The position numbers were made by a program, and so were the translations under genes. Shown piece after piece: positions 20,732-34,917 of a DNA stretch of 64,000 nt; within the stretch, counting starts at the first letter, position 1; the number at the start of each line of letters is the position of its first letter. The stretch spans positions 124,001 to 188,000 of the forward strand of contig PMSN01000025.1 in the NCBI GenBank assembly GCA_003167555.1, given 5' to 3'. The notes under the pieces are model-generated. The model saw nothing but the letters and a program-made list of their open reading frames with translations. It had not been told where the DNA came from and did no database searches. This DNA comes from Spartobacteria bacterium. GTDB lineage: Bacteria > Verrucomicrobiota > Verrucomicrobiia > Chthoniobacterales > UBA10450.

Positions 20732-23700
20732 ATGCTCCCAACTGCACCAGCGACGCGACCGAGCAACATTCGCGATAATCACACGCGAGGGAACGTTGGC
20801 GATTTTCTGCGAGAGAAGATCGAACCAGAGTCGCTCCTGTCGTTCGTCACGGCGTACTTCACGATCTATGGCTACGCGGCGCTCCGTCAGGAACTTGAAG
20901 GAATCGAACGTCTTCGTCTCCTTTTCGGCGAGCCCCGTTTCATCCGGGAGGTCGATCCCGACAAATCCGCCGGCAAACAATTCCTGATCGATTCGTCGGG
21001 GCTTCGCATCGCAAATCAGCTCTCCCAGCGCGCCATCGCGCGCGAGTGCGCCGACTGGATACGCAGGAAAGTCGATATTCGTTCGGTGGCGCAGGCCGGC
21101 TTCCTTCACGGCAAAATGTATCACGTCGCCAAGAACGGGGTTGAACATGCTCTCGCGGGGAGCTCTAACTTCACCAGTCGCGGTTTGGGCTCCGGCGCCG
21201 ACGCGAACATTGAGTTGAACTTGGAAGTCGACAGCCGCCGAGATGTTCAAGACCTCAAAGCCTGGTTCGACGAACTCTGGAACAACGAAGTCTTGGCGAA
21301 AGACGTCAAAGGAGAAGTCGTTGCTTACCTGGAAGCAGTTTATCGCGACTACGCCCCTGAATTCGTCTACTACAAAACGCTCTATCACGTCTTCGAAAAG
21401 TTTCTTGCAGATCAGGAGAAGGGCGGACTGCTCGACGAAGACATCAAAATCGTCGACACCTTGATCTGGAGCGCACTCTTCGAGTTCCAGCGGGACGGTG
21501 TGAAGGGCGCGATCAACAAGATCTTAAAGCACAATGGCTGCATTCTCGCCGACAGCGTTGGTCTCGGAAAAACGTTCGAGGCGCTCGCCGTCATCAAGTA
21601 TTTCGAGCTCAGAAATGAACGAGTGCTCGTGCTCTGTCCGAAGAAACTGCGAGAAAACTGGACCGTTTATCGCCACAACGACGCGTTGAATCCTTTCATC
21701 CGCGATCGATTTCGCTTCGATGTGCTCTCCCATACCGATCTAAGCCGGGAGAGCGGCAAATCGGGGGATATTGAGCTCAGCACCTTCAACTGGGGAAATT
21801 TCGATCTCATCGTAATAGATGAGTCCCACAATTTCCGGAATAACACGCCAGGAAAGCGTGACGAAGTAACGGGTGAGATTGTCCGTCGGAGCCGCTACCA
21901 GCGGTTGATGGAGGACATCATCCAAAAAGGCGTAAAGACGAAGGTGCTTCTGCTCTCAGCCACGCCTGTGAACAACGACCTCAAGGATCTTCGCAACCAG
22001 ATCTACTTCCTTACGGAGGGAGACGACGCCGGATTGCGCGAAAGCATTGGAATCCCGAGTCTCAAGGACGCGTTAACGAGCGCGCAGAAAACCTTTGCGG
22101 CATGGGCTCGGAAACAAACTGGCGAACGACGTACGGCAGACCTCCTTGAAAAGCTCAGCTCCGCTTTTTTCAAGCTGCTCGATGAACTCACGATCGCCCG
22201 CTCCCGCAAACACATTCAGCGGTATTACAAGGATAGCATCGCGGCTTTGGGCGGATTCCCGGTTCGCAAAAAGCCCGAAGCGATCTATCCCACGATCGAT
22301 ACGCAAAGCCGATTCTTGTCGTACGATCGATTGAACGATGAGATCAGCGGGTACAAACTCTCGCTCTTTGCGCCGTCGCGTTATCTCAAGGAGTCGGCGA
22401 AGTCCCGATACCAAACGCACGCGGGCGATCCGTTCAGCCAGGCCGACCGCGAAAAGTTTCTGGTCGGCATGATGAAGGTCGGTTTTCTCAAGCGACTTGA
22501 GAGTTCTGTTCACTCTTTCGAGATCACAATGGGACGAACGATTGGAAAGATCGAAAGCCTTGAGAAGAAGATTCGGAACTTCATTGCGAATCCCGAGCAA
22601 AACCCGGAACTGGACGAGCTCGAACTCGGCTTGGACGAGCCGGACGAAGAGGAGTTGGAGGCTTCGAGACTGGTTGGCGGCAAATTCAAATACCGGCTCG
22701 AAGACTTGGAACTGGATTCGGGCAAGAACTGGCTCAAAGATTTGCAGGGAGACAAGCAGCAACTCAGTTTGCTCTACGCGTCCGCCAAAGATGTAAGCCA
22801 AGACCGCGATGCGAAGTTGCAGGAACTGAAAAAATTGATCGAGCGAAAGGCTCGCAATCCCTCCACAAACAAGCGCGGCGAACTCAACAGGAAGGTGCTC
22901 GTCTTTACCGCGTTTGCCGATACAGCTTCATACCTCTTCGACGCACTGGTATCGTGGGCATCCAAGGATCTTGGCGTCCATGTTGCCCTAGTCACCGGCG
23001 GCGGACACAACCACACCACTTTCGGCAAGACAGAGTTCAACCAAATCCTCACGAATTTCTCTCCGCGTTCAAAGAATCGCGACAAGATTCAATCCATGCC
23101 CCAGAGCGGCGAGATTGATCTACTGATTGCCACAGATTGCATCTCGGAGGGTCAAAACCTTCAGGACTGCGATTACCTGATCAATTACGACATCCACTGG
23201 AACCCGGTTCGGATCATCCAGCGATTCGGACGAATCGATCGAATCGGAAGCGTCAATGAGTCGGTTCAGCTAATTAATTTCTGGCCTACGCACGATCTCG
23301 AAAAATACGTGAACCTCAAGAACCGGGTAGAGGCTCGCATGGCTCTCGTAGATATCGCGGCCACCTTCGAGGACAACATCCTCAACACCGATGAACTGGA
23401 GGAACTCGTCCAAAGTGACCTCAAGTATCGCGACAAGCAGTTGCTTCGGTTGAAAGAGGAAATTCTGGACTTGGAAGACTTTAATGAAACCGTCGCTCTC
23501 AACGAATTCACTCTTGATGACTTTAGGATTGAGCTGAGCAAGTACATCGAAAGCAATAAGGCAGCGCTTCGCGATGCACCGCTTGGCCTCTACGCAGTTG
23601 TTCCTACTGCCGCCGATCATTCCGTCATCGGCCCAGGGGTGATATTTTGTCTCAAGCAAAGCGCCGCCACAGACAAGACCGAGGCGGTCAATCCTCTTCA

Positions 23701-24067
23701 GCCCTACTACCTAGTTTACGTTCGAGACGATAAGACGGTCAGGTTCGGTTTTCCGCAGCCTAAACAAATTCTCGAAATGTATCGACTGCTTTGTGCGGGC
23801 AAGACCTCTGCTTATGACGCCTTGTGTCAGATCTTCGATACCGAAACGAAGAGCGGTACCGACATGAGTAAATACAACACCCTGCTCGACGCGGCAGTTG
23901 AATCCGTCGGTCGCACCTTCCAGCGTCGCGTCGCCAGCGGCGTTACTAGCGATCGAGGGTTCATCATTCCGCGAGAAAGTGAACAGCCTTCGGAAACGTC
24001 ACAGTTCGACCTAATATCCTGGCTGGTCATCTTGCCCCCAGCGCAGAACGATGCCCGCCGCAACTGA
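20732..24067 (+). CDS. PLD-family nuclease fused to SNF2/HepA-type helicase
   Basis: 1111 residues. The N-terminal part carries a phospholipase D-type nuclease motif, His126-x-Lys128 (FLHGKMYHV) followed by GSSNFTSRG near 143. The helicase follows: Walker A in DSVGLGKTFEA (Lys near 279), DESH in LIVIDESHNF near 362, SATPVNN near 410, and the motif VI region QRFGRIDRIGS near 830. Only one HKD motif is visible, so it may act as a dimer. This architecture is typical of restriction or phage-defence helicases (compare DrmD of DISARM and PLD-helicases of other systems). It is the first gene of a three-gene operon. Its last 17 bases overlap the methyltransferase gene. Confidence 0.88.
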   Translation: MLPTAPATRPSNIRDNHTRGNVGDFLREKIEPESLLSFVTAYFTIYGYAALRQELEGIERLRLLFGEPRFIREVDPDKSAGKQFLIDSSGLRIANQLSQRAIARECADWIRRKVDIRSVAQAGFLHGKMYHVAKNGVEHALAGSSNFTSRGLGSGADANIELNLEVDSRRDVQDLKAWFDELWNNEVLAKDVKGEVVAYLEAVYRDYAPEFVYYKTLYHVFEKFLADQEKGGLLDEDIKIVDTLIWSALFEFQRDGVKGAINKILKHNGCILADSVGLGKTFEALAVIKYFELRNERVLVLCPKKLRENWTVYRHNDALNPFIRDRFRFDVLSHTDLSRESGKSGDIELSTFNWGNFDLIVIDESHNFRNNTPGKRDEVTGEIVRRSRYQRLMEDIIQKGVKTKVLLLSATPVNNDLKDLRNQIYFLTEGDDAGLRESIGIPSLKDALTSAQKTFAAWARKQTGERRTADLLEKLSSAFFKLLDELTIARSRKHIQRYYKDSIAALGGFPVRKKPEAIYPTIDTQSRFLSYDRLNDEISGYKLSLFAPSRYLKESAKSRYQTHAGDPFSQADREKFLVGMMKVGFLKRLESSVHSFEITMGRTIGKIESLEKKIRNFIANPEQNPELDELELGLDEPDEEELEASRLVGGKFKYRLEDLELDSGKNWLKDLQGDKQQLSLLYASAKDVSQDRDAKLQELKKLIERKARNPSTNKRGELNRKVLVFTAFADTASYLFDALVSWASKDLGVHVALVTGGGHNHTTFGKTEFNQILTNFSPRSKNRDKIQSMPQSGEIDLLIATDCISEGQNLQDCDYLINYDIHWNPVRIIQRFGRIDRIGSVNESVQLINFWPTHDLEKYVNLKNRVEARMALVDIAATFEDNILNTDELEELVQSDLKYRDKQLLRLKEEILDLEDFNETVALNEFTLDDFRIELSKYIESNKAALRDAPLGLYAVVPTAADHSVIGPGVIFCLKQSAATDKTEAVNPLQPYYLVYVRDDKTVRFGFPQPKQILEMYRLLCAGKTSAYDALCQIFDTETKSGTDMSKYNTLLDAAVESVGRTFQRRVASGVTSDRGFIIPRESEQPSETSQFDLISWLVILPPAQNDARRN

Positions 24068-27000
24068 TCAGCGCGTCGGCATAGCCGCCGCTCTTTCGGA
24101 CTTCGATTCGTATCCGCTTTCGGACGCTGCTAGTCGTTTTTTTGCTGTCCTCGGCTATCAGTCCGATCGTCGTCTGCCGATCGCTACTGTTGGCACGTTT
24201 CGGGAATTCTTTGATCCTCGCGGCATTCTCACGCAACGCGAGCGAGAGCAGCTTGATCAGCTGACTTCGCTGCACCTTCTTTTTCAGCTTACCGATGCCG
24301 AATTGACCGCGCATGGGGACATGTTTGACAACTCCAACGCAGTCGAGAACACGCGTATCCATTCGTACCTTTTCTTTGCCGCCGAGCTGCCGGCTGGTCA
24401 ATACACGCGGACCTACCTTTCAAGCATCGCACGCGCAATCAACAAGCCGCTGCCGATGCCTGCCCTTGTCCTTATCCGGCATGGTGATGCGCTCTCAGTC
24501 GCCATACTGCATCGTCGGCTAAACAAGCGTGAAACGGACAAGGATGTGCTCGAAAAGGCAACCCTCATTAAGGATATCGCCGTTATAGATCCAATTCGGG
24601 CGCATCTGGAGATTCTCAATGAATTCGCCCTCGCCAATCTTGATGCAGAGTTTGGAATCCACAATTTCGTCTCTCTTCACAACGCTTGGCAGAAGCGCCT
24701 CGCGACCTCTGCGCTAAACGACAGGTTCTACACTGAGATCGCCAACTGGTATTTTTGGGCGAAGAAGCTCATCGCTGAGGGCAAGGTCCTTCCGCCGCGC
24801 GATGTCGACACCGACCCCGAGCGCTCACTCTTCCTCATCCGGTTGCTCACCCGCCTAATATTCTGCTGGTTCCTCCTCGAAAAGCGCCTCCTCCCACCCG
24901 CGCTGTTTCGGGAAAAGGACCTTGGCAAGCTGCTCGCCGACCTCGCCCCCAATAGCCCCACTTTCTACCGCGCTGTCCTGCAAAATCTTTTCTTCGGCAC
25001 ACTCAACCAGCCCGCCGACGAACGCGGTTTCCGCAAACGCACTGCCAGCGGCGGACGCGACCCAAACCGTGGCATCACCAATCTCTGGCGCTACGCCGAC
25101 CTCTTCTGCAAGCGGACCCAATGGGAGGAGTTGGCAAAAAATGTCCCTTTCCTCAATGGCGGCCTCTTTGACTGCCTCGACCGGATCTATGAAAAAGCGG
25201 ACGACGCCCCGAACACCCGCCTCGACGGTTTCTCCGACAATCCCAAAGAGGCTGCCGCGCTCCCGAACTATCTCTTCTTCGACGACACCGGGCGCACCGT
25301 AGACCTTTCCTCAGAGTTCGACGACGAAAAGAAAGCCAACGCCCGCTCCCGCAAGACCCCCGTCCGAGGCCTTATCCAAATTCTCACCCGATACAAATTC
25401 ACCGTCGAAGAAAACACCCCGCTCGACGAGGAAATCGCCCTCGACCCCGAGCTCCTCGGCAAAGTCTTCGAGAACCTCCTCGCCTCCTACAACCCCGAGA
25501 CGCGCGACACCGCCCGCAAGGCCCTTGGTGCCTTCTACACTCCGCGCGAAGTCGTCTCCTTCATGGTGGACGAAGCCCTCATCGCCTACCTCGAACCGAT
25601 CCTAAATGAAAGGGGAGCAGCCGCGAGCGCGAACGCTGACCGGCTGCACGATTTTTTCCACCCCAAGCCAGACAGCCCCGAAAATCCCTTTACCGACCCC
25701 GAAACCGACCACCTCGTGGATGCGCTCGATGATGTAAAAATCCTCGACCCGGCCTGCGGCTCCGGCGCGTTTCCGATGGGTGCGCTCCAGCGGCTAGTGA
25801 ATCTCCTCGCCCGGCTCGACCCGCACAACGAACGCTGGCAGGCCCGCCAGCGCACCCGCCTCGCCGACGATCGCGCCGCCGCCTCCAAGACCGCCGACCC
25901 GCAAGAACGCGTCGAAAAGCTCGCCGATCTCCAGCGTTGGGAGGACGAGCTCAACGTGATCTTCGACACCGGCCGCTTCCACCCTGACTACGCCCGCAAA
26001 GTCTTCCTCATCGAAAACGCCATCTTCGGTGCCGACATCCAGCCCGTAGCCGTTCAGATTGCCAAGCTCCGCTTTTTCATCGCCCTCATCTCGGATCAGA
26101 AGACCGAGGCTTCGACCCGTCCGACTCCGCTCCCCTTGCTCGAAAACTTCGGCGTCCTCCCCCTGCCGAACCTCGAGACCCGCATCGTCGCCGCCAATAC
26201 CCTCCTCCCCGTGGGCCGCACCGCGACCGGGCGCCTCGGCCAGGCCGATCTCCTCGACCAGCGCGTGGACCGCGTGCGTGCTGAGCTCCGGCAGGTCCAC
26301 CACGACCACTTTCAGGCCCGCACCCTCGCCCGCAAGCGGCGCTGCCGCGAGCGCGACGCCGCCCTCCGCGCCGAGCTGGCTTCGATCCTCCGCGGCAGCC
26401 TCCCCGCCGACCGCGCCGAGGCCCTCGCCACCACCAACCTCTTCGACCAAAACTCTTCCAGTCCGTTCTTCGAGCCCGCTTGGATGTTCAGCCATCCGTC
26501 CCCGCGCGGCGGCCACTCCGCTATCGAGGGCTTCGACATTGTCGTCGGCAATCCGCCCTACGTCCGGCAGGAGAAGATCAAGGACCAGAAAGAAGAGCTG
26601 CGCCCGCACTACCCGGAGACCTACAGCGGCACTGCCGACCTCTACGTGTATTTCTACGACCGCGCCCTCCAGCTCCTCCGCTCCGGTGGCATCCTCTCTT
26701 TCATCACTTCGAATAGCTTCCTGAATTCCGCCTTCGGCGAAAAGCTGCGGGCTCATCTTGCCAAGACCACCCGCATCCTCGTGCTGATCGATTTCGCCGA
26801 AGCGAAAGTCTTCACCGCAATCACCGAGCCATGCATCTTCATTGCGAAGAAAGAGACGCCGGGCAACAGCAGCTTCAAGGCGCTGCGATGGGATGAGGAG
26901 AAGCGCCCGGACAACATCCGCGCCGAGTTCGTAGCAAATGCCTTCTCGATGCCGCAAATCGTCCTGAGCAACCCGCCGTGGCAAATCGAAGTGCCCCGTG

Positions 27001-28067
27001 TCCGCAAATGGATGGACAAGCTCGTGGGTGCCGGCCCGCCGCTGGGGAAGTTCGTCAACAATCGGTTCTGCTACGGAATCAAGACGGGCTTGAATGAAGC
27101 ATTCATCATCGAGCGCGAGAAGCGCGACGAAATCGCCCGCGACAAGAAAAGCGCTGCATTCCTGAAGCCGTTTCTGCGCGGGAAAGATTTGCGGCGCTGG
27201 AAGCCGGTGTTCGCCGACCAGTGGCTCATCGTCATTCCGTCATCGGAGAATGCCACGCACCCTTGGTCCGGGCAGAAATCAGCCGAGGCTGAGAAGACGT
27301 TTCAGCACAGGCTGCCTGCTATCTACGAACACTTCCGGCCTCTGCGTGCGGAACTAATCGCCCGCGCCGACCAAGGTCACTATTATTGGGAACTGCGGAG
27401 TTGCGCCTACTACGAGGAATTTGCCAAGCCGAAGGTAATTTACCAGGAAATTAACCGGACGGACTCCTACGCCTACGATGCTTCAGGGCTCTACATGAAC
27501 AACAAGCTGTTCATGTTGCCCGAAGCGCCCATCTGGCTGCTTGGCATTCTTAACTCGCCTGTTGCCGCTTTCTTTTTGCACCGTTCCACTGGCGTGCCGA
27601 AAGGCGGCTTTCTTGCGCTGCAATGGCCTGTCTTCTCTCCGCTACCTGTCGCTGCTCCAGACGCGAAACAGAAGAAGATCCTCACCAATCTGGTTCACCT
27701 CGCGATGCAACTCACCGATCTTGTCCCGACGGGTGGACGGGCCGAACAGCCGCGGGATCCGATGATGCGCGACTACTACGAGGAGCTGCTGAACGCCTTG
27801 GTTTATGAGCTGTATCTGCCGGAGGAACTCCACGCCGCCGGGCTACGGATGTTTGATCGGGTGACGGCCGCCGGCCTGCCAGCGCTCGACGCGCCCCTTG
27901 CCGCGAACGCTCGTGGCGGTAAGGCGGACTCGGTTCAGGCCGCCCGCCACTTGACGGCTCTGCGCGAAAAATTCGAGGAACTCCACGCTCCCACGCACGC
28001 CCTCCGCGCCGCGCTCCAAAAACTTCACACCCTGGAGCCCATCCGCATCATTGAAGGCAAGGCGTGA
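24051..28067 (+). CDS. Eco57I-class N6-adenine DNA methyltransferase with TaqI-like specificity domain
   Basis: 1338 residues. Motif I is ILDPACGSGAF near 564-574 and motif IV is VVGNPPYVRQ near 831-840, the NPPY signature of N6-adenine or amino-methylases. The C-terminal third (from about 1000, with KTGLNEAFII and FLRGKDLRRW) is a TaqI-like target-recognition domain. The N-terminal 500 residues have no nuclease motif that I can identify. It resembles PglX/Type IIG proteins in size. Codon use changes along the gene: from about 24,850 to 26,700 nearly every third base is C or G, unlike the two ends. Stop overlaps the next gene as GTGA. It probably marks self DNA for the PLD-helicase. Confidence 0.88.
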   Translation: MPAATDQRVGIAAALSDFDSYPLSDAASRFFAVLGYQSDRRLPIATVGTFREFFDPRGILTQREREQLDQLTSLHLLFQLTDAELTAHGDMFDNSNAVENTRIHSYLFFAAELPAGQYTRTYLSSIARAINKPLPMPALVLIRHGDALSVAILHRRLNKRETDKDVLEKATLIKDIAVIDPIRAHLEILNEFALANLDAEFGIHNFVSLHNAWQKRLATSALNDRFYTEIANWYFWAKKLIAEGKVLPPRDVDTDPERSLFLIRLLTRLIFCWFLLEKRLLPPALFREKDLGKLLADLAPNSPTFYRAVLQNLFFGTLNQPADERGFRKRTASGGRDPNRGITNLWRYADLFCKRTQWEELAKNVPFLNGGLFDCLDRIYEKADDAPNTRLDGFSDNPKEAAALPNYLFFDDTGRTVDLSSEFDDEKKANARSRKTPVRGLIQILTRYKFTVEENTPLDEEIALDPELLGKVFENLLASYNPETRDTARKALGAFYTPREVVSFMVDEALIAYLEPILNERGAAASANADRLHDFFHPKPDSPENPFTDPETDHLVDALDDVKILDPACGSGAFPMGALQRLVNLLARLDPHNERWQARQRTRLADDRAAASKTADPQERVEKLADLQRWEDELNVIFDTGRFHPDYARKVFLIENAIFGADIQPVAVQIAKLRFFIALISDQKTEASTRPTPLPLLENFGVLPLPNLETRIVAANTLLPVGRTATGRLGQADLLDQRVDRVRAELRQVHHDHFQARTLARKRRCRERDAALRAELASILRGSLPADRAEALATTNLFDQNSSSPFFEPAWMFSHPSPRGGHSAIEGFDIVVGNPPYVRQEKIKDQKEELRPHYPETYSGTADLYVYFYDRALQLLRSGGILSFITSNSFLNSAFGEKLRAHLAKTTRILVLIDFAEAKVFTAITEPCIFIAKKETPGNSSFKALRWDEEKRPDNIRAEFVANAFSMPQIVLSNPPWQIEVPRVRKWMDKLVGAGPPLGKFVNNRFCYGIKTGLNEAFIIEREKRDEIARDKKSAAFLKPFLRGKDLRRWKPVFADQWLIVIPSSENATHPWSGQKSAEAEKTFQHRLPAIYEHFRPLRAELIARADQGHYYWELRSCAYYEEFAKPKVIYQEINRTDSYAYDASGLYMNNKLFMLPEAPIWLLGILNSPVAAFFLHRSTGVPKGGFLALQWPVFSPLPVAAPDAKQKKILTNLVHLAMQLTDLVPTGGRAEQPRDPMMRDYYEELLNALVYELYLPEELHAAGLRMFDRVTAAGLPALDAPLAANARGGKADSVQAARHLTALREKFEELHAPTHALRAALQKLHTLEPIRIIEGKA

Positions 28068-29638
28068 GACTCACGAAACTCAGTGTAACGGCATTTCGCG
28101 GCATCGCCGAGAAGTTTACGCTGAACTTCGATAACGCCGCGAAAAACATTCTTCTCTACGGTGAGAACGGCTCGGCCAAGTCATCGCTCTCTTATGCACT
28201 AGAGCTGCTTTTCGACCCAGAGCCGAACCGCGACCTCTTTTCACAGAGAAACCGCTTCGCTGCGACAGAACCGAAGATCGAAGCCGAATTTGTTGGAAGA
28301 GTCTCTGGAAAGAAGAGAATCGACACGCTGACTTGGACGAGTGACGAAAAACCTACTCCGCCTTGGTTGCTGGCCGCAGCCGCGCGCTCGGCATTCCTCG
28401 ATCACCGGAAGCTCCTTCTCCTGAGCGACCGCACGCGAGATCTCAGTGAGAATTTCTTTCGCACCTCAGTTGCGCATCTCTTTAGCCATCTGCCTACTGC
28501 CGGGGGCCTAACAGTAGGCCAGCTTTGGAAAGACGTGAATGATCGTGCAGCGGCGTATCGCACGGCACAGTTAGGCAAAGGCAGAGAGGCAGAATCGGGT
28601 CTCAGTGATCCAGTGGCGCACCACAAACCGATCGAAGATGGACTCAACGCATTGAACCTTGCGCTGGATGACTATCTCCTTCCGCTTGGCGGCAAGCCGC
28701 CAAGGCTCGTCAGCGAGGCTACTCGCTTGCTCTCGTATTTCGAGCATTTGAACCTCACGCTGGCGCTTCAATTCGATCACCTGAGCTTCAACCGCACGGA
28801 AGGGACATTCGAAGGTGGGCGCCTGCGCCCTGAGGTGAATTATTGTGGCATTGGCTTGACGATGGAGTCACTGAACGCTCGTGGCGAGAAGACGATGATT
28901 GCAATCCACCACGAAATCCTAAATGAAGCGCGCCTGACGGCGCTGGCACTCGTCCTCTTCTTTGCCGCGGTGCGATTGCAGAATGAGATTCCGTACACGG
29001 CTGGACCGGCCGAGCAGGAGCAGCCGGCGCGATTGCTTGTGATGGATGATGTGCTGGTGGGACTCGATTATGATCATCGTCTACCGATCTTGGAAATCAT
29101 TCGCAAGGAGTTTGAGCCGCACGGGTATCAGGTGATTCTTCTTACGCACAATCGCGTCTGGTTCGACATATGGCGACTCCAAATGGCTGAGCGCACGTGG
29201 AAAATCATCGAACTTTACTCCCGCCGCGGAGCCGGCCCCGGAAATTCCGACCACCCAGTGCAAAAACAGAGCGCCACCGATCTGCTTGTTCGTTCTCGCG
29301 AGTTTCTCGCCGACCACGAATTACCGGCCGCGGCGAATTACGCCCGTAGCGCGGTTGAGACAGCACTGAAGAAAATCTGCGACAAACGAGGCCTTCGGGT
29401 CCCTTTTCGCCTCGATCACGAACGATATACAACCGAGGTTTTTCTTAATGCCATCAAAGACGAAAAAAAGGTAGTAGACGGCAAACATCTTCTCGTTCCG
29501 AAAGACACTCAAAGTCAGCTGAGGGCGCTACGCAAAACGGTGCTCAACGAGCTAAGCCATTGGCATCCAACCACTGCGACTACCGCGGAGGTAAACAAAG
29601 CGATCGCCGTCGCGGAAGTTGTGGTAAAGGCTAGTTAG
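28064..29638 (+). CDS. SMC/RecF-like AAA ATPase with C-terminal HEPN-like helical domain
   Basis: 524 residues, GTG start overlapping the methyltransferase stop. The N-terminus is the RecF/SbcC type (LTKLSVTAFRGIAEKFTLNF) with Walker A GENGSAKSS near 33-41 (Ala replaces the usual Gly). A signature-like segment LNEARLTALALVLFFA lies near 285, and Walker B LLVMDDVLVGLD near 323-334 has Asp-Asp where Asp-Glu is usual. There is no long coiled coil. The last 120 residues (LPAAANYARSAVETALKKI, ending with VLNELSHWHP) look like a helical HEPN-type domain seen in abortive-infection ATPases such as the RloC group. That link is inference. Probably the sensor or effector of the operon. Confidence 0.85.
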   Translation: MRLTKLSVTAFRGIAEKFTLNFDNAAKNILLYGENGSAKSSLSYALELLFDPEPNRDLFSQRNRFAATEPKIEAEFVGRVSGKKRIDTLTWTSDEKPTPPWLLAAAARSAFLDHRKLLLLSDRTRDLSENFFRTSVAHLFSHLPTAGGLTVGQLWKDVNDRAAAYRTAQLGKGREAESGLSDPVAHHKPIEDGLNALNLALDDYLLPLGGKPPRLVSEATRLLSYFEHLNLTLALQFDHLSFNRTEGTFEGGRLRPEVNYCGIGLTMESLNARGEKTMIAIHHEILNEARLTALALVLFFAAVRLQNEIPYTAGPAEQEQPARLLVMDDVLVGLDYDHRLPILEIIRKEFEPHGYQVILLTHNRVWFDIWRLQMAERTWKIIELYSRRGAGPGNSDHPVQKQSATDLLVRSREFLADHELPAAANYARSAVETALKKICDKRGLRVPFRLDHERYTTEVFLNAIKDEKKVVDGKHLLVPKDTQSQLRALRKTVLNELSHWHPTTATTAEVNKAIAVAEVVVKAS

Positions 29639-29683
29639 AGGGCTTGACCTTGAATTCAGCCTAAGGAGATCGGTGCCATCATC

Positions 29684-29833
29684 TTCGCCGGGTCGCTCCA
29701 GCCGCCTACGTTCGTCCGCTACTTTTGAGTGGTGCGGTTGGAACTCGACCGCTTAAAGCGGTCGAGTTACCGCGGCGATTGAGATCCCTTTGGCTTCAGG
29801 TAATGCATCGTAAGCCGCTTACGATAACGCTCC
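29684..29833. repeat. 150-bp composite palindromic repeat, copy 1
   Basis: Contains a coding tail (WSDPA on the minus strand), palindrome A (29742-29768, arms AACTCGACCGCTT, 1-base centre), a 38-base spacer and palindrome B (29807-29825, arms ATCGTAAGC, 1-base centre). Copy 2 at 31013-31162 differs at only five of 150 positions. Confidence 0.9.
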
Positions 29834-29944
29834 CTGATCCCGAAGTAATCTGAAGAATTAGCCGACTCGGATCTGCGCGGAGTCGCTCCAGCCGGACGTA
29901 TTCCAGCCCGGTCTTCGTTCGTTAGTCTGAAAGAATTAGCCGAC

Positions 29945-30060
29945 TCAGATCTGCGCGGAGTCGCTCCAGCCGCCGACTTCGCCGTCGGTGCCGATCTTGC
30001 GCACCCGGCCCCAGATGATCGTGCCGGCCGTAAAGGCGCTCAGCTCGGCCCGGCCGCCGA
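29945..30060 (-). pseudogene. Orphan C-terminal fragment (fibronectin-III-like tail)
   Basis: The minus strand reads about 38 codons without a start: ELSAFTAGTIIWGRVRKIG, then TDGEVGGWSDSAQI and a stop. The WxRVRxIG and GxWSD pattern is what one sees at the end of fibronectin type III-like domains. I take it as the tail of a lost gene. The neighbouring shorter tails are probably related copies. Confidence 0.5.
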
Positions 30061-30120
30061 CACATTTTCGAAAACCTCGACCGGAGCTTCCCGTAGATAC
30101 AGAGACGGGACTTAAGCTAT

Positions 30121-30966
30121 ATGAAAACCAAATTGACGGCTCTATTGACGATTTCAGTGCTGCTCTCTGGTACGCAGCTTGGCTATGCTCAGGTCCGCAG
30201 GGTGGACCCTTTGCCCGTCATGCCCGTTGTGCCCATCACGCCGATTACTCCCATCACCCCGATCACTCCAATTATCGATGTGAGACCTTTCACGGTATCA
30301 CCGCCGAATTCCGCGGTGCCTTTGACCGTGAATCCGCCAACGGCGGTCTATGTACCGCCCGTTCCGAGCCGGCCCGCGCCGCCTCGCGAGGTGAATCCGC
30401 CACCGGTTTATGTAGAGCCTGTTCCGCGCGAACCCGACCCCGTTCCCGCGAATGGCGGTGATGGCCCTCCGCCGATGAGCGCGGAACAAGCCTTCGTGAT
30501 CGCTGTCTGCGCGAACGACTCGGACGTCTCGAGTGAGTGCCTCCAGCAGTCAGGCCGCGAGGCCGCGGCACAACTTCGCTGGATGTTACTGCAGTCATTC
30601 GCGGAGGGCGTGTATTCAAAAACAATCAGCATTCGATTTCCGTATATGACTTCGTCTCAGAAGCAGTTCGATTTCCTGAAGGAAATCGAGACAGTCGCGA
30701 TCGCGGCCGTTCACGCGAAAATGAAGGCCGACATCGAAAGGCTGAAGCCATTCTACTACGATTCATTGGGCACCAAGGCCGCGAAGTGGGAAGTGGTGCA
30801 GAGGGACCGAATCGCACTGAACAAGTGGAATCAAAGCGCCACGGCGGCGGCACAAAGTAGTTCGAACTGGTCACACGATTGGCGTTCGCAAACCCACACG
30901 TTTAACGAAGGCCCGGCGTATCGGCAGCTGAAGCAGATCTCCATCAGTGGATGGGGTGGGCATTAG
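30121..30966 (+). CDS. Exported Pro-rich protein, unknown function
   Basis: 281 residues with signal peptide MKTKLTALLTISVLLSGTQLGYA, a Pro-rich region (about 28-118) that includes a PIT tandem (VPITPITPITPITPII, from a 9-base DNA repeat) and many NPP/PVP motifs, then an alpha-helical domain with two Cys (VCANDSDVSSEC near 130-141) and a Trp- and Ser-rich end. I do not recognise the family. It sits between two copies of the 150-bp composite repeat. Its stop codon overlaps another minus-strand orphan tail (GTAQIKVVV). Confidence 0.65.
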   Translation: MKTKLTALLTISVLLSGTQLGYAQVRRVDPLPVMPVVPITPITPITPITPIIDVRPFTVSPPNSAVPLTVNPPTAVYVPPVPSRPAPPREVNPPPVYVEPVPREPDPVPANGGDGPPPMSAEQAFVIAVCANDSDVSSECLQQSGREAAAQLRWMLLQSFAEGVYSKTISIRFPYMTSSQKQFDFLKEIETVAIAAVHAKMKADIERLKPFYYDSLGTKAAKWEVVQRDRIALNKWNQSATAAAQSSSNWSHDWRSQTHTFNEGPAYRQLKQISISGWGGH

Positions 30967-31012
30967 ACCACGACCTTGATCTGCGCGGTGCCCGATTTAC
31001 ACCACCATTAGT

Positions 31013-31162
31013 TTCGCCGGGTCGCTCCAGGCGCCCACGTTCGTCCGCTACTTTTGATTGGTGCGGTTGAAACTCGACCGCTTAAAGCGGTCGAGTTACC
31101 GCGGCGATTGAGATCCCTTTGGCTTCAGGTAATGCATCGTAAGCCGCTTACGTTAACGCTCC
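31013..31162. repeat. 150-bp composite palindromic repeat, copy 2
   Basis: 145 of 150 bases equal copy 1 (29684-29833). Palindrome A is at 31071-31097 (perfect), and palindrome B at 31136-31154 has one mismatch at its outer edge. Confidence 0.9.
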
Positions 31163-31229
31163 TCAACCAATCTTGCGGATCGCCACGGCCGACTCATGTC
31201 AACGTCTCGACAAGCTTCGCCCTGGATGC

Positions 31230-31248
31230 ATCGTAAGCGGCTTACGAT
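31230..31248. repeat. Isolated palindrome B
   Basis: ATCGTAAGC-G-GCTTACGAT, perfect 9-bp arms. The centre base is G here and C in the other copies. Confidence 0.85.
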
Positions 31249-31289
31249 AGATTGTTTTAGTCGCGAACCGGCTAATTTTCGAATGTGAA

Positions 31290-31371
31290 ACTCGACTGGT
31301 TTAACCAGTCAAGTCATCGCAGCGGTTGAAATCCTTTCGCTTCAGGCAGTGCATCGTAAGCCGCTTACGAT
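31290..31371. repeat. Diverged copy 3 of the composite palindromic repeat
   Basis: Palindrome A at 31290-31314 has a changed core (GACTGGTT/AACCAGTC instead of GACCGCTT/AAGCGGTC), with both arms changed together. The 38-base spacer is kept in length and partly in sequence (tttcgcttcagg), and palindrome B at 31353-31371 is perfect. Confidence 0.85.
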
Positions 31372-31476
31372 AGATTGTTCCGATCTTCGCTCGTTGAGAT
31401 AAAGAATTAGCCGACTCGGATCTGCGCAGGGTCGGAATTTGCCGGGATGGGTAGTATCGCGTAAGCAGGGGGCTGC

Positions 31477-31767
31477 ATGAATCATCTGCGCAAACTCGGG
31501 CTGGCGTCGTTTCTTTTTCTCGGGCTCGGGCTTTTGGGCGGGACTTCCGGGGTCCCGCGGCTGCGGGGTCCCGCGGCTGCGGGATCGACGGCTCTTACCG
31601 TGACGCTGATCTGTTACGCCGTGGGGCTGGTGCTGGCGCTAATGGCGTTCATGCAATCACGGCGTGGCCAGAGTCTCGATGGGACGACGAAGTTTCTCGC
31701 TCGCGCACCGCTCGCGCTCGTCACTATCGGCGTCTTGATCTTTTTCCTCCGGGCCATGATCGGTTAG
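31477..31767 (+). CDS. Small membrane protein, unknown function
   Basis: 96 residues with an N-terminal hydrophobic segment (GLASFLFLGLGLLGG), a short Arg/Pro/Ala stretch and two further membrane helices (VTLICYAVGLVLALMAFM and ALVTIGVLIFFLRAM). The Arg/Pro/Ala stretch is coded by a 16-bp perfect tandem duplication (ggggtcccgcggctgc twice, about 31551-31582), which changes the frame between the copies. The protein could be the product of a compensated frameshift. I do not recognise a family. Confidence 0.6.
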   Translation: MNHLRKLGLASFLFLGLGLLGGTSGVPRLRGPAAAGSTALTVTLICYAVGLVLALMAFMQSRRGQSLDGTTKFLARAPLALVTIGVLIFFLRAMIG

Positions 31768-31983
31768 TAGCCGACCGGAACGAACTACGGAAACGATCTG
31801 ATGGAGGTGCTATACGTGAATCACGTATAGCAGCGAAATGTCCTCGCGAACCGTACGCGGGAAACAGTGTTTGGATCGAACCTAGCTCTACTCCATTCGG
31901 AACCGTTATTGGTACGTTAGTGTGAGCAAGAAGTTCTAGACTCGCTGGCGCAAGCGCCGCGGCTCCAGCGGGGAACGAGGAAA
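31768..31983. other. Intergenic region with a 21-bp palindrome
   Basis: 216 bases between the small membrane protein gene and the end of the mlaD-like gene. Apart from the palindrome at 31810-31830 and a GC-rich inverted stretch near 31950 (gctggcgcaagcgcc), nothing gene-like is seen. Confidence 0.5.
31810..31830. repeat. Palindrome C, copy 1
   Basis: CTATACGTGA-A-TCACGTATAG, perfect 10-bp arms with a single centre base. Copy 2 is at 34778-34798 with centre T. No T-run follows. Confidence 0.85.
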
Positions 31984-34777: not shown

Positions 34778-34798
34778 CTATACGTGATTCACGTATAG
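34778..34798. repeat. Palindrome C, copy 2
   Basis: CTATACGTGA-T-TCACGTATAG, perfect 10-bp arms with a single centre base. The centre base is the complement of that in copy 1, so the two copies are reverse complements of each other. Confidence 0.85.
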
Positions 34799-34837: not shown

Positions 34838-34856
34838 ATCGTAAGCCGCTTACGAT
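34838..34856. repeat. Palindrome B, additional copy
   Basis: ATCGTAAGC-C-GCTTACGAT, perfect, followed 36 bases later by a palindrome A-like element (34893-34917, ACTCGACTGG with CCACTCGAGT, one mismatch). Confidence 0.85.
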
Positions 34857-34892
34857 AGACAATGCCATCGCGCACTCGCTAGCCCGCCTTGC

Positions 34893-34917
34893 ACTCGACT
34901 GGCTTAACCACTCGAGT
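34893..34917. repeat. Diverged palindrome A
   Basis: ACTCGACTGG and CCACTCGAGT around a CTTAA centre, one mismatch in ten. Close to the version at 31290-31314. Confidence 0.7.

Follow-up and report, generated by a model that had tools for sequence, protein, structure and literature searches.

Short palindromes beside small DNA-binding-type genes in soil Verrucomicrobia, and their possible origin as ends of one-gene cassettes

Palindromes of the intergenic mosaic

The window, the whole 64,000-nt stretch of DNA that was analysed, comes from contig C12 in a genome of 4.2 Mb (98% complete) and contains an intergenic mosaic (29.6-31.5 kb, downstream of a defence-like operon) in which short palindromes recur. 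This locus raises the question of whether these palindromes act together as one composite element and, if not, what each of them belongs to. The defence-like operon, directly upstream of the mosaic (20732-29638), encodes an SNF2/HKD helicase (C3a139-like), a type IIG restriction-methyltransferase (Eco57I/TaqI_C), and an AAA/SMC-like ATPase. The 3' end of one gene has also left several remnants in the mosaic (minus strand, ...GWSDPAQIRVG*); these remnants (...VRKIGTDGEVGGWSDPAQIRVG*) were located at 29676-29704, 29853-29894, 29931-30061, 31005-31033, and 31402-31443, and at C20:61654 in the same genome a related sequence forms part of a longer reading frame. A 96-aa membrane-protein-like ORF (31477-31767) has DNA-level relatives at several sites in the genus and belongs to no Pfam family.

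Three palindrome families, referred to here as A, B, and C, were identified. An earlier note on this DNA had described three joint occurrences of A and B between 29742 and 31371, the third with a changed A, and further A and B elements at 34838-34917, and all of these palindromes are present. The first copy comprises A (AACTCGACCGCTT-A-AAGCGGTCGAGTT, 29742..29768, no strand), which is of the same family as the palindromes flanking winged-helix (wHTH) genes, a 38-nt spacer (29769..29806), and B (ATCGTAAGC-C-GCTTACGAT, 29807..29825). The second comprises A at 31071..31097 and B at 31136..31154, the latter with one uncompensated A-to-T change (ATCGTAAGCCGCTTACGTT); in both copies A has 13-bp arms and a one-base centre. 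As the note had recognized, the two are nearly identical, and they are not independent instances, because both lie in one duplicated 158-bp block (29676..29833 and 31005..31162, 95% identical) that includes the gene 3'-end remnant (minus strand, ...GGWSDPAKMMAPISLG*). In the third copy (A at 31289..31315, B at 31353..31371), the proposed joint change of both arms of A is borne out by two compensated pairs (core TGG/CCA), but two changes at the right end (GTCAAGTC for GTCGAGTT) are uncompensated and the spacer is not kept at 38 nt. The A-to-B offsets are 64, 64, and 63, equal to spacers of 38, 38, and 37 nt, so that A and B do occur together three times, but not at the fixed distance that had been proposed. 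The third copy is an older paralogue of the duplicated block, and a single A-B pair of the window was multiplied by local segmental duplication.

Of the more distant elements, B (34838..34856) and a degenerate A (ACTCGACTGGCTTAACCACTCGAGT, 34893..34917) are both found as claimed, but B comes before A, 36 nt separate them, and A carries an uncompensated G-to-C change. Absent from the earlier list were a solo B centred on the alternative base, G (31230..31248), and two copies of C (CTATACGTGA-A-TCACGTATAG at 31810..31830, and one with centre T at 34778..34798), a palindrome of odd length (CTATACGTGANTCACGTATAG) that also precedes an XRE-HTH gene elsewhere in the genome. The window holds five B matches with at most three mismatches, compared with 0.01 expected from shuffles, and a sample of the same genome contains 10 palindromes with one-base centres and arms of at least 11, compared with about 0.6 in a third-order Markov control. 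No gene for an A, B, or C protein, nor a convincing remnant of one, was found at 29.0-35.5 kb, and the copies in the window are therefore solo palindromes. Genome-wide, B normally occurs without A. A functional A-38-B composite is ruled out by the duplicated block, the 38/38/37 spacer, and the independence of A and B elsewhere, and fixed spacing as a functional feature is unsupported.

Distribution and conservation of the palindromes

B (ATCGTAAGCSGCTTACGAT) has 11 exact sites in its own 4.2-Mb genome and 16 sites with at most three mismatches (reversed control, 0); these B sites, only about 16 in number, are mostly intergenic and clustered, and the genome has just a handful of A sites. Within the family, exact B was detected in 31 of 83 genomes and seven of 14 genera, with copy numbers from 0 to 12 among congeners, while A, searched with its 11 central bases left free, was detected in 22 of the 83 genomes and six of the 14 genera. 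All three palindromes occur together in intergenic clusters of a congener (L196). Across about 85,000 species genomes, B occurs in 55 stretches, nearly all from the Chthoniobacterales/Spartobacteria/Udaeobacter group (Verrucomicrobia), and the four outside this group are near the roughly two that we estimate to arise by chance in 257 Gb. One contig filed under Acidobacteriaceae (L075) holds four B copies 63-67 bp apart and is probably mis-binned. A viral reservoir of B was rejected, as neither B nor a relative of the B protein was found in 2.9 million viral contigs. A literature search for the letters of the palindromes gave no match.

The more than 100 contexts of B have unrelated flanks save for a weak symmetric TCATSY/RSATGA consensus, and A is flanked by AA/TT. 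According to a crude gene caller, 30 B sites are in tandem, 24 in convergent, and 14 in divergent positions, and 29 are inside called ORFs, most of them short. Local duplications were found near 50 of 111 B sites, compared with 379 of 1592 intergenic controls. In two genera (L055 and L068), the duplicated 3' end of a dehydrogenase-type gene adjoins B, and a further family of palindromes with one-base centres (GGTCGCAAWTTGCGACC) was seen in several contexts (L068, L073, L116, and L196).

The earlier note held that covariation of the arms implies selection for symmetry. In A, four core types, all fully compensated (GGC/GCC, CGC/GCG, TGG/CCA, and TGC/GCA), are spread over the family; the covariation score is 0.138 versus 0.066 in shuffles (reached by one of 500 shuffles), and the cells changed on both sides number 7 versus 2.7 (3/500), while the count of pairs with changes on both sides is no higher than in shuffles. 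In B, only pair 4 covaries (G-C to A-T, at a CpG; 111 paired versus 91 expected), the core otherwise hardly varies, and outer positions are conserved without covariation. The claim thus holds for the core types of A. Because B covaries at one pair alone, symmetry is not a general covariation signal, and the symmetry of A mirrors separate sub-types that are each linked to a particular unit.

At an orthologous locus in Udaeobacter, six species keep B, where one of 95 positions differs compared with 14% in the flanks, and none of 184 neighbouring 19-nt windows is equally conserved; coding as a cause of B conservation was rejected at the L078 locus, where no open frame is common to the species. 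One species carries a 41-bp REP-like insert inside this B, and others have B deleted or lost. The centre base flips between orthologues. At another locus (L044), genome G022 has one uncompensated change, and in G021 REP-like sequence is inserted at this same internal position. When gaps and free bases were allowed in a scan for B, five interrupted copies with related inserts were recovered, all in one orientation at ATCRTA^AGCSGC (controls, none), and REP-like sequence thus inserts preferentially in B. REP-like inserts of 31-42 nt at the same point and in the same orientation were noted at L318, L317, L319, L320, L321, and L267. Insertion of REPs within other palindromes has been reported for GTAG- and CGTC-tagged palindromic repeats (Di Nocera et al. 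2013, PMC3733652). These tagged repeats resemble B in that REP-like inserts interrupt it at a fixed position, but differ from it in that B is mostly uninterrupted and flanks its own gene.

Small genes between palindromes of one family

In several loci, duplicated fragments ended exactly at B, and the same small basic ORF recurred between two Bs; tblastn searches with this ORF returned relatives with B as the nearest neighbour on both sides. In total, 11 B-ORF-B units were identified (264-342 bp and one of 385 bp) in six genomes (G000, G012, G024, G034, G044, and G072) from five genera, each carrying the gene for a basic protein (about 65-77 aa) that falls into no known family. The start of the homologous ORF lies 5-11 nt after the 5' B in eight of the 11 units and exactly 6 nt after it in five, and the downstream (3') B is close to the ORF stop. 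In several cross-genus pairs, DNA similarity sets in with the opening base of the 5' B or breaks off no more than one base from the 3' B end: similarity between L061 and L103 runs from +1 to 265 of 264 and from +1 to 270 of 269 (B to B), that between L061 and L094 ends at 264/264 and 298/298, and that of L061/L069 and L069/L074 begins at B. In other B-unit pairs, the alignment stays within the ORF.

The B protein has 28 invariant columns among five sequences, and differences between the ORFs favour codon position 3 (e.g., 15/10/35 and 18/13/37). It matched no family in Pfam, NCBIfam, or PADLOC and had only a weak match in PHROGs; its structure model is all-helical with moderate confidence (pLDDT 69.8), and a fold search with this model gave no match with E below 6 and no solved fold. 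It is a candidate DNA-binding protein. As A or B had served to retrieve most of the loci, the link between gene and palindrome is conditional except in half of the source genome, and gene copies lacking palindromes are possibly under-sampled for the same reason. That half, 2.07 Mb fetched largely regardless of B, contains a single copy of the B gene, which is flanked by B 6 nt ahead of the ATG and 45 nt beyond the stop. A scan for palindrome-ORF-palindrome layouts in which neither A nor B was specified picked up A units, B units, and a REP-RAYT-REP locus as positive control. L308, L074, and L350 are decay intermediates.

Three complete A-ORF-A units (L295, 483 bp; L302, 482 bp; L301, 529 bp) and two partial loci, one cut by the contig end (L309) and one truncated and fused to A (L308), were identified for A, and the gene in all of them encodes an ArsR-like winged-helix protein. 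Between L295 and L302, which come from two genera, DNA similarity begins and ends at A, and in three of four loci A precedes the ATG by 13, 15, and 16 nt. The A core differs from unit to unit (TGC in L295, GGC in L302, and TGG in L301), and the proteins are about 50-58% identical. The A protein matches NCBIfam HTH_metalloreg (E 3.6e-6) and ArsR_Rv2640c (E 2.8e-6), both below the curated cut-offs, and another member has a weak match to Pfam HTH_5 (E 0.0019). The A protein also matches the N-terminal part of a candidate defence protein, PDC-M05A (PADLOC, E 3e-19), and among plasmid proteins its nearest relatives carry the annotation nucleotidyltransferase-domain protein. In the source genome, an XRE-HTH gene begins 21 nt after C, in one intact case and with C upstream only, and a decayed relative of this gene was found between two C copies. 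Two Cs also flank a DUF433 gene in the same genome; C as the end of this gene was rejected, as its homologues elsewhere are without C.

Possible origins of the dispersed palindromes

On balance, the data lean towards A, B, and probably C being the end palindromes of tiny one-gene cassettes, each bounded by the operator of its own regulator. A cassette would consist of a palindrome, a short gap (mostly 5 to 16 nt), a small DNA-binding-type gene, and a second copy of the palindrome that closes it, with A pairing with the ArsR-like winged-helix protein, B with the basic all-helical protein, and C with the XRE-type HTH protein. The palindrome at the start codon would most likely be a dimer operator through which the encoded protein regulates its own gene, and the dimeric protein site envisaged by the earlier note fits this layout, as the genes between the A or B palindromes encode small proteins that are basic or of DNA-binding type and the 5' palindrome usually lies 5-16 nt before the start. 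Cassettes may have been dispersed as blocks and scattered, along with lone palindromes, over intergenic DNA, which is consistent with the sharp edges that units in unrelated surroundings have in common, where similarity starts or stops at A or B in several cross-genus pairs; solo palindromes, such as the copies in the window, may have been left by decay of the gene or deletion of units. Solo palindromes, however, greatly outnumber the units, and the strong local conservation of one solo B locus in Udaeobacter counts against this model, as it is unexpected for a dead scar. Neither a transposase linked to A, B, or C nor a clean empty site was found, the neighbouring intergenic regions being too diverged, and no target duplication is evident.

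The earlier note had also proposed a mobile REP-like element and a search for a RAYT-like (Y1) gene. The REP-like anatomy stands, given the unrelated contexts, the many solos, and the mostly intergenic positions, but the palindromes are not of the RAYT/Y1 kind in any tested sense. The genome contains five Y1 genes, all of them more than 1.5 kb from the nearest A, B, or C, so a RAYT-linked REP was rejected for all three palindromes, and tblastn of the five Y1 proteins against the examined B loci found none near B. The two Y1 genes with flanking palindromes carry other, GGAG-associated REPs; RAYT/Y1 genes with REPs of their own were recorded at L165 (G000:C1:3903-4199, GGGGAGCGCAGGCT...CGGCAGCTTGCCG) and L163 (G000:C23:521467-521739, GGAG-CGGCGATTT...AAATCGCCG). 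Tag-less REP-like elements, i.e., single hairpins that a Y1/HUH nuclease mobilizes in trans, with the small genes as passengers between two palindromes and the Y1 proteins of the genome as candidate movers, are nevertheless suggested by the perfect single-strand hairpins (A -14, C -10, and B -5 kcal/mol), the intergenic clustering, the very presence of five Y1 genes, the identical anatomy of REP-RAYT-REP loci, and the REP-like inserts at one fixed point inside B. We consider this explanation unlikely, given that the Y1 genes stand apart from A, B, and C or bear other REPs, that GTAG, GGAG, and CGTC tags are absent from B flanks, and that one gene family keeps the same palindrome at a near-constant distance from its start in several genera, which is unexpected of passengers. 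It is less likely still that A, B, and C are ordinary operators, sites of chromosomal regulators that control many loci with nothing mobile: dyad symmetry with a one-base centre, the near-invariant core of B with half-site-like flanks lacking covariation, the B locus conserved across Udaeobacter species, and the position of a palindrome before the putative regulator's own gene would all suit such sites, but the flanking genes vary by site without concentration upstream of genes (tandem, convergent, and divergent positions as above), exact B sites range from none to a dozen among congeners, and palindromes stand at both gene ends with similarity bounded by the unit.

Two further explanations appear very improbable. 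If the palindromes acted as RNA-level hairpins, namely 3' stabilisers or terminators, the slight preponderance of convergent over divergent positions would be understandable; terminator-like sites in the region, however, show no excess (8 versus 6.6 expected from shuffles), no Rfam match reaches gathering level, and the B stem is near-invariant instead of showing compensated change. Equally little weight is given to the absence of any selection for symmetry, in which template-switch correction keeps the palindromes symmetric and copies multiply only by local segmental duplication. Quasi-palindrome correction is a known mutational route (PMC7202029) that could also restore symmetry, the A-38-B blocks of the window are segmental duplicates, and both the local duplications near B and the flips of the centre base between orthologues agree with it, but more than 100 B copies with unrelated flanks go beyond local duplication, and B is nearly without compensated double changes.

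Compared with known systems, one-gene cassettes share with REP/RAYT elements short dispersed intergenic palindromes, a single-copy gene between the same palindromes, many solos, and clusters with duplicated flanks; they differ in that the flanks of B have no tag tetranucleotide, the centre is one base, and the gene encodes an ArsR-like wHTH or a 65-77 aa basic protein rather than a Y1 transposase, and true RAYT-REP loci of other sequence coexist with them in the same genome. ArsR/SmtB and XRE (Cro/CI-type) regulators are autoregulated via palindromic operators and likewise have a palindrome immediately ahead of the start codon of a small wHTH/HTH gene, whereas here the palindrome also closes the gene at its 3' end and is scattered as solo copies. 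MITEs and Correia-type elements are small, non-autonomous, and palindrome-ended, but the A and B units carry a conserved gene, and no related transposase was found. A broader possibility, which we put forward only tentatively and regard as somewhat doubtful, is that these are mobile one-gene cassettes without a transposase, in which the gene for a small DNA-binding protein lies between its own operators, several unrelated families (ArsR-like wHTH, XRE-HTH, and a new basic protein) having converged on this layout, with solo operators being seeded across the genome and regulator and sites spreading and co-evolving, as the unit-specific A cores would indicate.

Palindromes of the REP type are usually explained by a Y1 transposase (RAYT), and here a similar layout belongs to small DNA-binding-type genes. 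If the proteins bind their palindromes, a regulator could spread across a genome in company with its binding sites, and hypotheses on how tag-less dispersed palindromes arise would become testable. Each of three palindrome families in the abundant, little-studied soil Verrucomicrobia now has a candidate cognate protein.
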